A stretch of 64,000 nt of DNA from Rhodothermus marinus (GTDB lineage: Bacteria; Bacteroidota; Rhodothermia; Rhodothermales; Rhodothermaceae). The notes under the pieces were generated by a model. It saw only the letters and a list, made by a program, of their open reading frames with translations, did no database searches and was not told the origin of the DNA. The DNA lies in assembly GCF_009936275.1 (NCBI RefSeq), contig NZ_AP019797.1, positions 2,091,890 through 2,155,889 on the forward strand. The letters are read 5' to 3'. Below, piece by piece: positions 32,148 through 44,259 of this stretch. Position 1 is the stretch's first letter. The number at the start of each line of letters is the position of its first letter. Position numbers and translations under genes: made by a program.

Positions 32148-32156
32148 TGCGTCAAT

Positions 32157-32277
32157 CTCATCAAGAACGGCTGAGGGAACAGGCCCGATGACGCCGTAGC
32201 AACCGGGCATCTCCTGCCGGCAGGGAGGTGCCGTCCGGTGCTAAATCCTGCCCGGAAGGCAGACCGGGAACGATGAG
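32157..32277 (+). ncRNA. SAM-I (S-box) riboswitch aptamer
   Basis: The segment shows the S-box consensus in order: CTCATCAAGAACGG at the 5' side of P1/P2, GAGGGA, GGCCCGATGA, GCAACC, then GGTGCTAAATCCTGCCCG and the closing GATGAG at 32272-32277, which pairs with CTCATC at 32157. The aptamer binds S-adenosylmethionine and normally represses methionine and cysteine genes. It lies 163 bases upstream of a cystathionine gamma-synthase-type gene. That agrees with a methionine-pathway role. Confidence 0.95.
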
Positions 32278-32377
32278 GGACGCCCTGCGTGCCGCGCCGC
32301 AGTTCCTCCCGTTTTCGGTCGATACGCTTCCGGGGAAGATGAGAGCAGCTTCTGGCGTTTGCCGGGGTTCTGTACGC

Positions 32378-32436
32378 TCGGTTCTTGATGAGAGCTATTG
32401 CAGGAAGTCGTTTTCATCATCAAGAACCGATCAAGG
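32378..32436 (+). promoter_or_regulatory. Expression platform: hairpin ending beside the ribosome binding site
   Basis: TCGGTTCTTGATGA (32378-32391) and TCATCAAGAACCGA (32417-32430) form a perfect 14-base stem with a 25-base loop. The right arm ends 2 bases before AAGG (32433-32436), the ribosome binding site of the gene starting at 32440. The left arm can instead pair with the 5' strand of the aptamer: 32381-32393 is complementary to 32156-32168 over 13 bases. The aptamer 5' strand and the hairpin right arm are in effect direct repeats (TCATCAAGAAC). There is no U-run, so translational control is more likely than termination. Confidence 0.7.
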
Positions 32437-32439
32437 CCT

Positions 32440-33600
32440 ATGCAGCCACAGACGCGTCTGACGCTGGCCGGTCAGCAGACCGACTCCAGCTACAACAGCA
32501 TCGTTCTTCCCATTTACCAGTGCGCCACGTTCCGCTTCGAGGATGTCGGGTTGACGAAAGGATACGACTATTCGCGCAGCGGCAACCCGACACGGCGTGC
32601 GCTGGAAGAGGTGCTGGCCGACCTGGAGGGCGGCGCCGGCGCCGTAGCCACCACCAGCGGCATGGCGGCCGTTTCGACCGTGCTGGCCATGTTCGACCAT
32701 GGCATCCATGTGATCTGCGCCCACGATTGCTACGGCGGCACCGAGCGGCTGCTGAGCCTGCTCGCACGACAGAGCAAGCTGGAGGTGTCGTTCGTCGATC
32801 TGCGCGACCTGCAGGCCGTCGAGGCGGCCATCCGACCGAACACCCGGATCATCTGGGTGGAAACGCCCTCCAACCCGCTGCTGCGCATTGTCGATCTGGA
32901 TGCGCTCTGTCGCTTCGCGAAAGCCCACGACCTGCTGGTGGTGGTGGATAACACCTTCCTGTCGCCGCTCCAGCAGCGACCCATGGATTTCGGCGCCGAC
33001 ATCGTCGTTTACTCGACCACGAAGTACCTGAACGGCCACTCCGACGTCATCGGCGGGGCGGTCATCGTCCGCACCGAGGAATTGAACGAGCAGCTGCAGT
33101 TCGTGGCGAACGCCCACGGCACCATCGCCGGACCCTTCGATTGCTGGCTCGTGCTGCGCGGGCTGAAGACGCTTCCGGTGCGCATTCGTCAGCACGAGCA
33201 CAACGCGATGGCCGTGGCGCGCTTCCTGGCGCAGCATCCCAACGTCGAGCAGGTTTTTTATCCGGGCCTGCCTTCGCATGAAGGGCACGAGATCGCGGCG
33301 CGCCAGCAGAAGGGGTTCGGCGGCATGGTTTCGTTCACGGTCAAAGGGGGCCTGGAGGCCGTCCACCATATCCTGCGGTCCACGCGGGTGTTCACGCTGG
33401 CCGAATCGCTGGGCGGCGTCGAGTCGCTCATCGAGCATCCGGCCACGATGAGCCATGCGTCGATGCGCCCGGAACAACGCGAGGCCGCCGGCATTACGGA
33501 CAACCTGATCCGCCTGTCGGTCGGCATCGAGGCCACCGACGACCTGATTGCCGACCTGGAACAGGCGCTGGCCTACGAACCGGCCACCGTTGCCGCCTGA
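32440..33600 (+). CDS. metB: Cystathionine gamma-synthase / trans-sulfuration PLP enzyme
   Basis: The 386-residue protein has the Cys/Met-metabolism PLP fold: YDYSRSGNPTRRALE, ATTSGMAAVSTVLAMF, the lysine K195 in YSTTKYLNGHSDV, and ESLIEHPATMSHASM near the end. It makes cystathionine from an acylated homoserine and cysteine, or acts as a cystathionine lyase or O-acetylhomoserine sulfhydrylase; the family cannot be split by eye. The SAM riboswitch upstream favours a methionine-synthesis role. The ATG at 32440 has AAGG 4 bases upstream. Confidence 0.9.
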   Translation: MQPQTRLTLAGQQTDSSYNSIVLPIYQCATFRFEDVGLTKGYDYSRSGNPTRRALEEVLADLEGGAGAVATTSGMAAVSTVLAMFDHGIHVICAHDCYGGTERLLSLLARQSKLEVSFVDLRDLQAVEAAIRPNTRIIWVETPSNPLLRIVDLDALCRFAKAHDLLVVVDNTFLSPLQQRPMDFGADIVVYSTTKYLNGHSDVIGGAVIVRTEELNEQLQFVANAHGTIAGPFDCWLVLRGLKTLPVRIRQHEHNAMAVARFLAQHPNVEQVFYPGLPSHEGHEIAARQQKGFGGMVSFTVKGGLEAVHHILRSTRVFTLAESLGGVESLIEHPATMSHASMRPEQREAAGITDNLIRLSVGIEATDDLIADLEQALAYEPATVAA

Positions 33601-33815: not shown

Positions 33816-33859
33816 CGTTGCGCATCCTGAACGTTTTCCTTTTTCCTGCAACTGCAACC

Positions 33860-34675
33860 ATGCTGCATTCCCATAACCGTCCCGTTGAGCGCGGCAAGGT
33901 TTACCTGGTCGGCGCCGGTCCGGGCGACCCGGAGCTGATCACCGTGCGGGGGCTGACGCTGCTGCGTCAGGCCGAGGTGGTCGTCTACGACCGGCTGGTG
34001 CACCCGGCCCTGCTGGACGAGGTGCCTGCAACGGCCGAGCGCATCTACGTGGGCAAGACGCCCGGCCGCCACGTGCTGCCCCAGGAGGCGATCCAGGAGC
34101 TGCTGATCGACCGGGCCCGGCGCAATCTGATCGTCGTGCGCCTGAAGGGCGGCGATCCGTTCGTTTTCGGTCGGGGCGGCGAAGAAGCCCGTGCACTGGC
34201 ACAGGCCGGCATCCCCTTCGAGGTTGTGCCGGGCGTCACCAGTGCCATCGCCGTGCCTGCCTACGCCGGCATTCCGGTCACCCAGCGCGGCGTGGCCGGC
34301 TCGTTTGCCGTCGTGACGGGCCACCGCTGCGACCTGGAGGCGCTCGCGCTGGACTGGTCGGCGCTGGCCCGCGTCGATACGCTCGTGCTGCTGATGGGGC
34401 TGCGCCGCCTGCCCGAACTGGTCCGCACGCTCCAGGCGCACGGCCGCGCGCCCGATACGCCCGTGGCCGTCATCAGCAACGGCACCACCGCCGCCCAGCA
34501 GTGCGTGCTCGGCACGCTGGCCGACATCGCCGAGCGGGCGGCGCATCTGAGCACACCCGCCACCGTCGTGGTCGGCGAGGTGGCCCGCCTGGCCGACGAG
34601 CTGGCCTGGTTCCATCCGGAGCCGACCCCCTCGCCTTTCAGCCTGCATCCCGAAACCCAGCCCTCTGAGCCCTGA
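33860..34675 (+). CDS. cobA: Uroporphyrinogen-III C-methyltransferase
   Basis: The 271-residue enzyme has the SUMT signatures VYLVGAGPGDPELITVRG, VYDRLVHPALL, VRLKGGDPFVFGRGGEE and VVPGVTSAIAVPAYAGIPVTQRG. It methylates uroporphyrinogen III twice with SAM to give precorrin-2, the first step toward siroheme. The ATG at 33860 is preferred; a TTG at 33818 would begin within the terminator tail. It is the first gene behind Cys attenuator 1, consistent with siroheme supply for sulfite reductase under cysteine demand. Confidence 0.95.
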   Translation: MLHSHNRPVERGKVYLVGAGPGDPELITVRGLTLLRQAEVVVYDRLVHPALLDEVPATAERIYVGKTPGRHVLPQEAIQELLIDRARRNLIVVRLKGGDPFVFGRGGEEARALAQAGIPFEVVPGVTSAIAVPAYAGIPVTQRGVAGSFAVVTGHRCDLEALALDWSALARVDTLVLLMGLRRLPELVRTLQAHGRAPDTPVAVISNGTTAAQQCVLGTLADIAERAAHLSTPATVVVGEVARLADELAWFHPEPTPSPFSLHPETQPSEP

Positions 34676-41047: not shown

Positions 41048-41162
41048 CTTCAAAAGCCGTACCACCGGCTTTCTCTCGGGATTTTTGCAAAAGCCTGGGA
41101 CGCACCGGGAGAACTTTTCCCGGTCCCTTTCGTTTGGTGAGCAGAATTTGCCGTGTAAGGCC

Positions 41163-41261
41163 ATGATGCTTTCGCCTGTGCACCGGTGTTGCTGTTGTTG
41201 TTGTGCCCGCCCGATCGGGGGGGGCAACAGGTGCGTGTGCACCGGCGAAAGCAGCACGTAA
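41163..41261 (+). CDS. Cysteine-rich leader peptide 2 (32 residues, six consecutive Cys)
   Basis: An ATG at 41163, preceded by AAGG, opens 32 codons and ends with TAA at 41259-41261. The peptide reads MMLSPVHR then six Cys in a row (codons 41187-41204), followed by ARPIGGGNRCVC and a short tail: eight Cys in total. It has no resemblance to a folded protein. The next gene is a cysteine synthase, and an intrinsic terminator lies in between, so it is best read as a leader peptide whose translation stalls when Cys-tRNA is low. The other frames of this stretch lack a start, a ribosome site or a stop before the terminator. Confidence 0.88.
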   Translation: MMLSPVHRCCCCCCARPIGGGNRCVCTGESST

Positions 41262-41327
41262 GACATAGCAGCGCCAACACGCCACGCACAGGTTGCCCCT
41301 CCGGAAGCTTCCGCGAGGGGTTTTTTA
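41199..41327 (+). promoter_or_regulatory. Cysteine-responsive transcription attenuator 2
   Basis: Segment 1, the end of the Cys codon run TGTTGTGCCCGCCC (41199-41212), pairs with segment 2, GGGGGGGGCAACA (41217-41229). Segment 2 can instead pair with segment 3: GGGGCAAC (41221-41228) is fully complementary to GTTGCCCC (41293-41300), extendable to 11 pairs with one G-T. Segment 3 contains the left arm of the terminator, whose right arm is segment 4, GAGGGG (41316-41321). A ribosome paused in the Cys run masks segment 1, so 2:3 forms and transcription continues into cysM. This is the classical trp/his-type design, folded by hand. Confidence 0.8.
41297..41327 (+). terminator. Intrinsic terminator of attenuator 2
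   Basis: CCCCTC (41297-41302) pairs with GAGGGG (41316-41321), extended inside by CGGAA/TTCCG, and is followed by six T (41322-41327). cysM starts 23 bases further on. Confidence 0.93.
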
Positions 41328-41349: not shown

Positions 41350-42303
41350 ATGTTTGCCGAAACGCTACAGACTGCCACGAACACGCGCCCGCTCTCCGGC
41401 ACCGAGCTGATTCGCGCCATCGGCCATACGCCGCTGATTCGCCTCCGGCGGGTTGCGCGCCACCTGCCCGAGACGGTGGCCGTCTACGTCAAGGCCGAGC
41501 ACCTGAATCCCGGCGGCTCGGTAAAGGATCGGCCGGCGCTGCGCATGGTGCTCGAAGGCCTGCGGAGCGGGGCGCTACGCGAGGGGCGCGTGCTCATCGA
41601 CGCCACCAGCGGCAACACGGGCATTGCCTACGCCATGCTGGGGGCCGCGCTCGGTTTTCCGGTGACGCTGGCCATGCCGGCCAACGCCTCGCCCGAGCGC
41701 AAACGCATCCTGAAGGCCTACGGCGCGGAGTTGATCCTGACGGACCCCATGGAGGGCACCGACGGGGCCCAGCGCTACGCGCGCGAACTGGTGCAGCAGG
41801 AACCCGACCGCTACTTCTACCCCGACCAGTACAACAACGACGCCAACTGGCGCGCCCACTATGAAGGCACCGGCGTCGAGATTCTGGAGCAGACGGGCGG
41901 GCGTGTCACGCACTTCGTGGCCGGACTGGGCACAACGGGCACGTTCGTCGGCGTCAGCCGGCGGCTCAAAGCCCACAACCCGGCGATCCGCTGCTATGCC
42001 CTCCAGCCCGACTCCCCGCTGCACGGACTGGAAGGGCTCAAGCACCTGGAAACGGCCATCGTGCCGGGCATTTACGATCCCTCGCTGGTGGACGAGCACC
42101 TGACCTGCTCCACCGAAGAGGCCTTCGAGATGACGCGTCGGTTGGCCCGCGAAGAGGGACTGTTCGTCGGGCCGTCGTCCGGTGCCAACGTCGCGGCGGC
42201 GCTGCGCATCGCCGAACAACTGGACCGGGGCGTCGTGGTCACCGTCCTGTGCGACACCGGCGCCCGCTATCTGAGCGAACCGTTCTGGGAAGAAACGCCA
42301 TGA
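41350..42303 (+). CDS. cysM: Cysteine synthase (CysM-like, probable CysO-dependent)
   Basis: The 317-residue PLP enzyme has K59 in NPGGSVKDRPALRM, ATSGNTGIAYAMLGAALG, GLGTTGTFVGVSRRLK and VGPSSGANVAAAL. It makes cysteine from an O-activated serine and a sulfur donor. Its neighbours (a JAMM protease, a CysO-like carrier and a MoeZ-like activator) are those of the mycobacterial CysM route, in which the donor is a protein thiocarboxylate and the substrate is O-phosphoserine. I therefore suggest that route; sulfide and O-acetylserine remain possible. The ATG at 41350 follows the terminator; an upstream start would overlap it. Confidence 0.93.
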   Translation: MFAETLQTATNTRPLSGTELIRAIGHTPLIRLRRVARHLPETVAVYVKAEHLNPGGSVKDRPALRMVLEGLRSGALREGRVLIDATSGNTGIAYAMLGAALGFPVTLAMPANASPERKRILKAYGAELILTDPMEGTDGAQRYARELVQQEPDRYFYPDQYNNDANWRAHYEGTGVEILEQTGGRVTHFVAGLGTTGTFVGVSRRLKAHNPAIRCYALQPDSPLHGLEGLKHLETAIVPGIYDPSLVDEHLTCSTEEAFEMTRRLAREEGLFVGPSSGANVAAALRIAEQLDRGVVVTVLCDTGARYLSEPFWEETP

Positions 42304-42746
42304 AAATCAAAGCATCGCTGCTCGATCAGATCCGGAAACACGGCGAAGCCACCTATCCGGAAGAGTGCTGCGGGTTGCTGCTGGGCAAAAGCGGCCCGGA
42401 CGGCAACCACGTGCTGGCGCTTTATCCCGTGGAAAACCGCCATGCCGAGCAGCGCGAGCGACGCTACACGATCGCCCCGTCCGACTATCTGGCCGCCGAG
42501 CGGGCCGCCCGCCAGCAGGGGTTGGACGTGGTGGGTTTCTACCATTCCCACCCGGACCATCCCGCCCGCCCTTCGGCCACCGATCTGGCCGAAGCCACTT
42601 TCCCGGGTTATACCTACGTGATCGTCGCCGTGCATCAGGGCCGGGCCGGCGAGCTGACCGCCTGGCATCTGTCGCCCGACCGCACCCGCTTTGAATCCGA
42701 AGCTATCGAAATAGAACCCGAAACAACCTCCGTCGATCAAACCTGA
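42300..42746 (+). CDS. mec: JAMM/MPN-type metalloprotease (Mec-like)
   Basis: The 148-residue M67-family protein has the zinc motif H82-S-H84-x7-S92-x2-D95 (GFYHSHPDHPARPSATD) and the upstream catalytic glutamate in YPEECCGLLLG. In Mycobacterium the homologue Mec cleaves cysteine from the CysO-cysteine adduct; in other systems JAMM proteins trim extra residues from sulfur carriers. Both uses fit here, since the next gene encodes a carrier with two residues after its Gly-Gly. The ATG overlaps the cysM stop. Confidence 0.9.
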   Translation: MKIKASLLDQIRKHGEATYPEECCGLLLGKSGPDGNHVLALYPVENRHAEQRERRYTIAPSDYLAAERAARQQGLDVVGFYHSHPDHPARPSATDLAEATFPGYTYVIVAVHQGRAGELTAWHLSPDRTRFESEAIEIEPETTSVDQT

Positions 42747-42755
42747 GTAAGCAGC

Positions 42756-43052
42756 ATGAGCACGACGACCGCAACCGTGACGATCCGGATCCCCACGCCG
42801 CTCCGAGGTTTTACCAACAATCAGGAAACCGTCGAGGTGAGCGGCGCCACGGTAGGCGAAGCGTTGCAGCAACTGGTGGAACAGTTTCCCCGGCTGAAGC
42901 CGCATCTGTTCAACGAAGAAGGGCGTCTGCGCTCGTTCGTGAACATCTACCTGGGCGACGAAGACATTCGCTACCTGCAGCGCGAGGCAACGCCCCTGAA
43001 GCCGGGCGCCGAGCTTTCCATCGTGCCATCGGTTGCCGGTGGACGTCTTTAA
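42756..43052 (+). CDS. cysO: CysO/MoaD/ThiS-type sulfur carrier protein with C-terminal extension
   Basis: The 98-residue ubiquitin-like protein begins with TVTIRIPTPLRGFTNNQETV, contains SFVNIYLGDEDIRYL and ends VPSVAGGRL. The region resembles mycobacterial CysO, which ends in Ala-Gly-Gly; here Arg-Leu follows the Gly-Gly. The carboxylate of the final Gly must be free to be adenylated and thiolated, so the last two residues are expected to be removed first, most likely by the adjacent JAMM protease. It starts 9 bases after that gene. Confidence 0.93.
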   Translation: MSTTTATVTIRIPTPLRGFTNNQETVEVSGATVGEALQQLVEQFPRLKPHLFNEEGRLRSFVNIYLGDEDIRYLQREATPLKPGAELSIVPSVAGGRL

Positions 43053-43071: not shown

Positions 43072-44259
43072 ATGCCTGTAACCACAGCCGACATTACGCT
43101 GACACCGGAAGAACTCCGGCGCTACAACCGCCACCTGATCCTGCCCGAAGTCGGCCTGGAAGGTCAGAAGAAGCTGAAGGCGGCCTCGGTGCTGCTGGTC
43201 GGTGCCGGCGGCCTGGGCTCGCCGCTGGCGCTCTACCTGGCGGCTGCCGGTGTGGGCCGCCTGGGCCTTGTCGACTTCGACGTGGTCGACGAGACGAACC
43301 TGCAGCGCCAGGTGCTGCACGGCACGAAAGACGTCGGCCGCCCCAAGCTGGAGTCGGCGCGTGATCGCATCCTCGACATCAATCCCCACGTGCAGGTAGA
43401 CCTCTACGAAACGCGCCTGACCAGCGAGAACGCGCTCGACATCATCAAAGAATACGATCTGGTGGCCGACGGGACCGACAACTTCCCGACGCGCTACCTG
43501 GTCAACGATGCCTGCGTCCTGGCCGGCAAGCCCAACGTCTACGCTTCGATCTTCCGGTTCGAGGGTCAGGTGTCGGTCTTCGGCACGCCCGACGGGCCGT
43601 GCTACCGGTGCCTCTACCCGGAGCCACCGCCGCCCGGACTGGTTCCCTCCTGCGCCGAAGGTGGCGTGCTGGGCGTGCTGCCGGGTCTGGTGGGCACCAT
43701 CCAGGCCACCGAGGTCATCAAGATGATTCTCGGGATCGGGACGCCGCTCATCGGCCGGCTGCTGCTGGTCGACGCGCTGCACATGCAGTTCCGCACGCTC
43801 AAGGTGCGGAAGAACCCCGAGTGCCCGATCTGCGGCGAGCATCGCACGATCCATGAACTGATCGACTACGAACAGTTCTGCGGCCTGCCCTCACGCAACG
43901 GCGAGGCGGCCGCGCAGCAGACGGCCGAAAGCGAGGTGCCCGAAATCACGGTGCATGAGCTGAAGGCCCGCCTGGAGCGCGGCGACCGGCCGGTCATCCT
44001 GGACGTGCGCAAGCCGCACGAGGTGCAGATTGCCAGCATCGAGCATGACCTGCTGATTCCGGTCGACGAGCTGCCCGAGCGGCTTTCGGAACTGGAGCCC
44101 TACCGCGACCGCGAAATCGTCGTGTACTGCCGCTCGGGGGCGCGCTCGGCACGGGCCACGAAGCTGCTACGCGAGGCGGGCTTCCGCGACGTCAAAAACC
44201 TGAAGGGCGGCATCCTGGCCTGGAGTCAGGAGATCGATCCCAGCATCCCCCAGTACTGA
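43072..44259 (+). CDS. moeZ: MoeZ-like adenylyltransferase-rhodanese fusion (sulfur carrier activation)
   Basis: The 395-residue fusion has an E1-like domain: ATP-binding GAGGLGSPLALYLAAAG near residue 45, DGTDNFPTRYLVND, zinc pairs C177/C180 and C251/C254, and C194 in VPSCAEGG. It also has a C-terminal rhodanese domain with active-site C353 in VYCRSGARSARA. It adenylates the C-terminal glycine of a carrier protein and then moves sulfur onto it as a thiocarboxylate. It ends the cysM-mec-cysO-moeZ operon; it may also serve molybdopterin or thiamine carriers. Confidence 0.94.
   Translation: MPVTTADITLTPEELRRYNRHLILPEVGLEGQKKLKAASVLLVGAGGLGSPLALYLAAAGVGRLGLVDFDVVDETNLQRQVLHGTKDVGRPKLESARDRILDINPHVQVDLYETRLTSENALDIIKEYDLVADGTDNFPTRYLVNDACVLAGKPNVYASIFRFEGQVSVFGTPDGPCYRCLYPEPPPPGLVPSCAEGGVLGVLPGLVGTIQATEVIKMILGIGTPLIGRLLLVDALHMQFRTLKVRKNPECPICGEHRTIHELIDYEQFCGLPSRNGEAAAQQTAESEVPEITVHELKARLERGDRPVILDVRKPHEVQIASIEHDLLIPVDELPERLSELEPYRDREIVVYCRSGARSARATKLLREAGFRDVKNLKGGILAWSQEIDPSIPQY

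Follow-up and report, generated by a model that had tools for sequence, protein, structure and literature searches.

Enterobacterial attenuators of the trp/his type combine a short ORF, in which codons for the product amino acid stand in a row, with mutually exclusive terminator and antiterminator structures, and terminate by default when the leader is not translated. For cysteine, the uORFC-8-2 motif, predicted upstream of cysS in Rhodobacterales (PMC8632094), joins a Cys uORF to an intrinsic terminator; in these alphaproteobacteria two tandem Cys codons, UGC-dominated, precede the cysteinyl-tRNA synthetase gene, and read-through on Cys-tRNA shortage is predicted. The polycysteine uORFs of mycobacteria were predicted without conserved terminators (PMC1262725) and have been reported as translation attenuation (PMC13236596; Canestrari 2020, as cited there and in PMC9094748); they are leaderless, with the Cys run close to the stop codon. 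Closer to the organism considered here, leader-peptide attenuators have been suggested in amino-acid operons of Flavobacterium psychrophilum, from a neighbouring group (PMC9723704); the passage on them names no amino acids and describes no Cys case.

We analysed a window of 64,000 nucleotides (the whole stretch of DNA, to which all coordinates refer) within the 3.43-Mb single-contig genome of Rhodothermus marinus. Among its genes are four in cysM-mec-cysO-moeZ order, the counterpart of the mycobacterial set for making cysteine from the CysO thiocarboxylate:

41350-42303, + strand: cysM-like cysteine synthase (NCBIfam cysKM subfamily above cut-off; TIGR01138 cysM 385.4 against a cut-off of 394.2; PALP)
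42300-42746, + strand: mec-like JAB metalloprotease (Prok-JAB), overlapping the stop codon of cysM
42756-43052, + strand: cysO-like sulfur carrier of the ThiS/MoaD family (ThiS family; SAMP1 at its cut-off)
43078-44259, + strand: moeZ-like ThiF-rhodanese activating enzyme (ThiF and Rhodanese domains)

The leader preceding cysM very probably attenuates transcription by a ribosome-mediated mechanism, with charged tRNA-Cys as the signal sensed. Its coding part is a short ORF, open to translation, with many codons for cysteine, the product of the downstream genes:

41157-41160, + strand: Shine-Dalgarno-like AAGG, 2 and 5 nt upstream of a tandem ATG at 41163/41166 (read directly)
41163-41261, + strand: leader peptide ORF of 32 codons, translation MMLSPVHRCCCCCCARPIGGGNRCVCTGESST and stop (read from sequence)
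41187-41204, + strand: six consecutive Cys codons (TGT, TGC, then TGT four times), a conserved cluster and the proposed stall site, or sensor

A preliminary description of the window had pointed out the 32-codon ORF with its ribosome site and the six Cys codons in a row, and rereading the sequence bears out both. It had also counted two more Cys codons further on; these are present here (41232-41234 and 41238-41240) but are absent from relatives, because the reading frame after the Cys run differs. Eighteen codons separate the run from the stop codon, and this distance, with the strong terminator described below, sets the leader apart from the mycobacterial translation attenuators.

Among 99 genomes of Rhodothermales we found 34 CysM orthologues, the closest named relative by CysM being Roseithermus (records very near the window were possibly left out). 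A Cys-cluster short ORF lies at the equivalent place upstream of cysM in 32 of the 34, followed each time by a strong terminator. All 29 orthologues shown to head cysM-mec-cysO-moeZ are included; in the other three (L174-L176) the flank is too short to show operon membership. The two exceptions (L125 and L126, of one family) have no mec or cysO beside cysM, and neither the Cys leader nor the terminator layout. The anatomy of the leader is thus documented across the order by sequence comparison, and it shows the conserved Cys runs with variable flanks that the preliminary description had proposed looking for.

The Cys pattern itself changes from leader to leader (CCCCCC, CCCAMCCC, CRCWCRCC, CCCRCC, CCCCCCPCCC), with up to nine Cys codons, and all other residues drift. 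Within the genus, leaders of strains whose CysM proteins are 98% identical differ by one base in length downstream of the Cys run and so have their tails in different frames; the sequence of the tail peptide is therefore not under selection. Kept Cys codons within a drifting remainder point to codon reading. A very unlikely alternative is that the Cys-rich nascent peptide is itself the sensor, its thiols binding metal or becoming oxidised and the ribosome being arrested or released as a result, while the output would still be the terminator. Metal-responsive Cys-containing uORFs are known in other bacteria, and the ECF-like promoter proposed below would suit redox control, but neither the Cys spacing nor any other residue is conserved, the product of the operon is cysteine, and codon reading fits both the bias towards UGU and the constant spacing between the codons and the antiterminator. 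The bias is marked: 111 UGU against 26 UGC among the Cys codons of the leaders, compared with 29 UGU against 99 UGC in the long GC3-rich ORFs of the window (a mechanically made ORF set from one genome), where UGU is the rarer Cys codon. In theory, the codon bias of leaders is linked to how isoacceptors are charged (PMC1183508), an account that a single tRNA-Cys would not directly fit.

Chance, that is, a TGY repeat that happens to lie close to the terminator of another transcript, has next to no likelihood of explaining these leaders. Strings of five Cys codons do occur at other places in the R. marinus genome, but only this one lies in a short ORF with a strong terminator after it, and among the sites with five successive Cys codons no second Cys attenuator was found. 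The order-wide conservation already contradicts a chance origin, as do the controls. The combination of Cys leader and terminator was seen upstream of 0/20 paralogues from Rhodothermales and in 4/320 dinucleotide shuffles. Of the leaders, 18/29 have at least five Cys codons in ten, a density reached by 0.17% of shuffles of the upstream regions; such clusters numbered zero on the reverse strand, and on the same strand any other amino acid reached at most 7/29. Of the 30 places read in a search for His runs, none made a convincing His attenuator.

The regulatory part of the leader comprises the following elements:

41295-41327, + strand: intrinsic terminator with U tract (hairpin 41295-41321, -18.9 kcal/mol; T-rich tail to 41327)
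41218-41228, + strand: antiterminator strand (GGGGGGGCAAC), pairing with 41292-41302 and beginning 12 nt past the last Cys codon
41292-41302, + strand: switch arm (GTTGCCCCTCC), which can form either the helix with the antiterminator strand or the 5' arm of the terminator, and covaries with both partners
41199-41229, + strand: sequestering hairpin, in which the last two Cys codons and the C-rich stretch after them pair with the antiterminator strand

The terminator had been placed at 41297-41327, and its strength is upheld with the slightly wider limits given here. The alternative pairing is also real, but the 8-mer at 41221-41228 had been matched to 41293-41300, and its partner is actually 41292-41299, one base off. 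The full helix joins 41218-41228 to 41292-41302, with an inner helix in addition, and the competition formerly suggested between antiterminator and a hairpin on the Cys run holds, since 41218-41228 can pair with either the end of the run or the 5' arm of the terminator.

An intrinsic terminator stands between leader ORF and first gene in 32/32 of the orthologues with a leader. This constancy bears on an extremely unlikely reading, by which control is translational or through Rho-dependent termination, as suggested for the mycobacterial Cys leaders, and the hairpin is incidental. Those leaders do lack conserved terminators (PMC1262725) and are reported as translational (PMC13236596), but in these Rhodothermales leaders the terminator is strong, is present in all 32, and pairs in a manner mutually exclusive with the antiterminator.

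The antiterminator pairing of the R. marinus leader is better than that of 200/200 dinucleotide shuffles. Across relatives its energy falls within the best 1% of shuffles in 18/28 leaders and within the best 5% in 21/28, while in 7/28 it is no better than shuffles at 5%. The best antiterminator segment begins 1-13 nt past the last Cys codon in each of the 28 leaders tested, mostly 7-12 nt, close to where the leading edge of a ribosome stalled in the Cys cluster would lie. The terminator motif GCCNCTC has C, T or G by genus at its fourth base (switch-arm position 4), and these changes are matched in the 3' arm of the terminator and, in most cases, in the antiterminator strand too, so that the compensatory changes in both exclusive stems anticipated by the preliminary description are found across Rhodothermales. 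This covariation lends support but is not independent evidence, since choosing the antiterminator strand meant choosing the best available pairing, and the relatives themselves are not independent; the shuffles and the fixed geometry test the idea more strongly.

We infer that the leader is translated, that ribosomes stall in it and that the outcome responds to cysteine, as follows. When cysteine is plentiful, the ribosome would pass the six Cys codons and reach the stop codon; behind it 41218-41228 would fold back onto the end of the Cys run (41199-41229); with 41292-41302 then unoccupied, the terminator would form and transcription would end near 41327. When Cys-tRNA is short, the ribosome would stall in the Cys run, covering the sequestering partner; the freed 41218-41228 would pair with 41292-41302, the terminator would be blocked, and RNA polymerase would read on into cysM-mec-cysO-moeZ, the route to cysteine from protein-bound thiocarboxylate.

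These outcomes were modelled for the R. marinus leader as equilibrium pairing probabilities, with an assumed ribosome footprint reaching 14 nt downstream. A stall at Cys 1-2 is predicted to give the terminator, and a stall at Cys 3-6 the antiterminator (P 0.83-1.0). With the ribosome at the stop codon, the fold of the RNA behind it contains the sequestering hairpin, the antiterminator core being paired, and so hidden, with P 0.87 and the terminator forming with P 0.96; absence of translation gives the terminator with P 0.99. Folding of the relatives has the antiterminator forming before the 3' arm of the terminator is made in 27/28 leaders, and the terminator forming with the ribosome at the stop codon in 28/28. 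At full equilibrium the antiterminator is favoured at some Cys codon in 18/28; the remaining 10/28, in which it is favoured at none, would rely on co-transcriptional folding. Untranslated RNA is predicted not to terminate in 5/28, and the relatives thus differ in how convincing the thermodynamics is. Sequence and folding together point to an antiterminator that excludes the terminator and becomes available when the ribosome stalls on the control codons, weakly so in some relatives.

The trp/his-type design assigned in the preliminary description is accordingly borne out by order-wide Cys runs, exclusive stems and predicted folding: product-amino-acid codons in a short ORF, exclusive terminator and antiterminator, and predicted default termination without translation. 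The Rhodothermus leader differs from the enterobacterial examples in being cysteine-specific and in another phylum, in having the antiterminator strand about 10 nt past the control codons, and in that this strand would be hidden by pairing with the control codons, not by the ribosome at the stop codon. With uORFC-8-2 it shares Cys codons in a uORF and an intrinsic terminator, but in place of two tandem, UGC-dominated codons before cysS it has six Cys codons (up to nine in relatives), UGU-biased, before the cysM-mec-cysO-moeZ operon. The mycobacterial uORFs are likewise poly-Cys short ORFs upstream of cysteine or sulfur genes, but here a 5' UTR is likely and the intrinsic terminator is strong.

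Upstream of the leader ORF we noted a promoter-like element:

41111-41136, + strand: candidate ECF-sigma-like promoter, GAACTTTT-N12-CGTTTG (spacing AAC-N16-CGTT), near-invariant in six genomes of the genus

Its exact match is unique in the R. marinus genome, and a GAACTTT box is also present in L105, L106, L107 and L117, including some other families. Its resemblance to an ECF-sigma promoter makes it a candidate for that role. A palindrome surrounding the GAACTTTT box was set aside, as it is not conserved. Searches upstream of the leaders found no Bacteroidetes-type promoter pattern, and a sigma-70-like pattern in only two relatives.

No Rfam model matched the leader at gathering or permissive thresholds (the best permissive hit, E=5, lies on the other strand), and at gathering level this covers the T-box and the other Rfam riboswitches. 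Elsewhere in the window a SAM riboswitch (RF00162, 74.6 bits, 32155-32279, + strand) is followed by a gene for a PLP-dependent trans-sulfuration-type enzyme (32398-33600), and also precedes a uroporphyrinogen/siroheme methyltransferase-like gene (about 33818-34675), both named by eye. In this genome the methionine side thus has a riboswitch, and the cysteine side apparently a leader peptide.

Outside Rhodothermales, a Cys-cluster ORF with an intrinsic terminator precedes cysM in several Acidobacteriota (L007, L048, L012, L015, L019 and, judged by eye, L014) and in Ignavibacteria-type or other genomes of the same phylum grouping (L062, L131 and L134), while many acidobacterial cysM-mec-cysO operons are without this combination. 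Other arrangements were also seen. (i) Two acidobacterial leaders, L024 (about -28 to -16 from the cysM match) and L027 (-7 to +11), end in ...NCYAT(I)DTRCCC(CC) and a stop; lying just before or overlapping the start of the match, they are possibly a different, translational kind of Cys leader. (ii) Upstream of cysM in L008 (Pyrinomonadaceae), the conserved promoter-like block and a terminator are kept and the Cys codons are absent, an apparent loss of the sensor. (iii) The Ignavibacteria L040 and L043 have upstream of cysM Cys codons right before the stop (CCCCPHPC and CCCCCCC), without a strong intrinsic terminator, a layout resembling the mycobacterial one. Terminator sequences differ among the Rhodothermales, Acidobacteriota and Ignavibacteria-type groups, so the leaders may go back to common descent or to repeated origin. 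It is possible, if doubtful, that Cys-tRNA attenuation of the CysO/Mec pathway arose repeatedly in these three groups and was, in this genus, stacked on an ECF-sigma promoter; if so, the operon would integrate thiol or envelope stress with cysteine supply.

We found no report of such a system for Rhodothermus in the literature, of which our coverage is incomplete; an older comparative attenuation survey might hold an earlier prediction. The novelty claimed in the preliminary description survives to that extent, but a Cys-codon attenuator had already been predicted outside actinobacteria (PMC8632094), and its statement that it knew of no such system in Rhodothermota/Bacteroidota is qualified by the suggestion of leader-peptide attenuation in a flavobacterium (PMC9723704). 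Judged from sequence, a Cys-leader attenuator before this cysteine-synthesis operon in Rhodothermales is apparently both real and undescribed. With it, a cysteine-synthesis operon and an entire bacterial order join the few candidates for Cys-responsive attenuation by a leader, and the comparative evidence is strong enough to justify testing it directly. It provides a natural and compact means of sensing charged tRNA-Cys, and the recurrence before the same operon in distant phyla is a usable case for how attenuators arise. For the organisms themselves, it suggests that Cys-tRNA controls the CysO/Mec route in bacteria other than actinobacteria.
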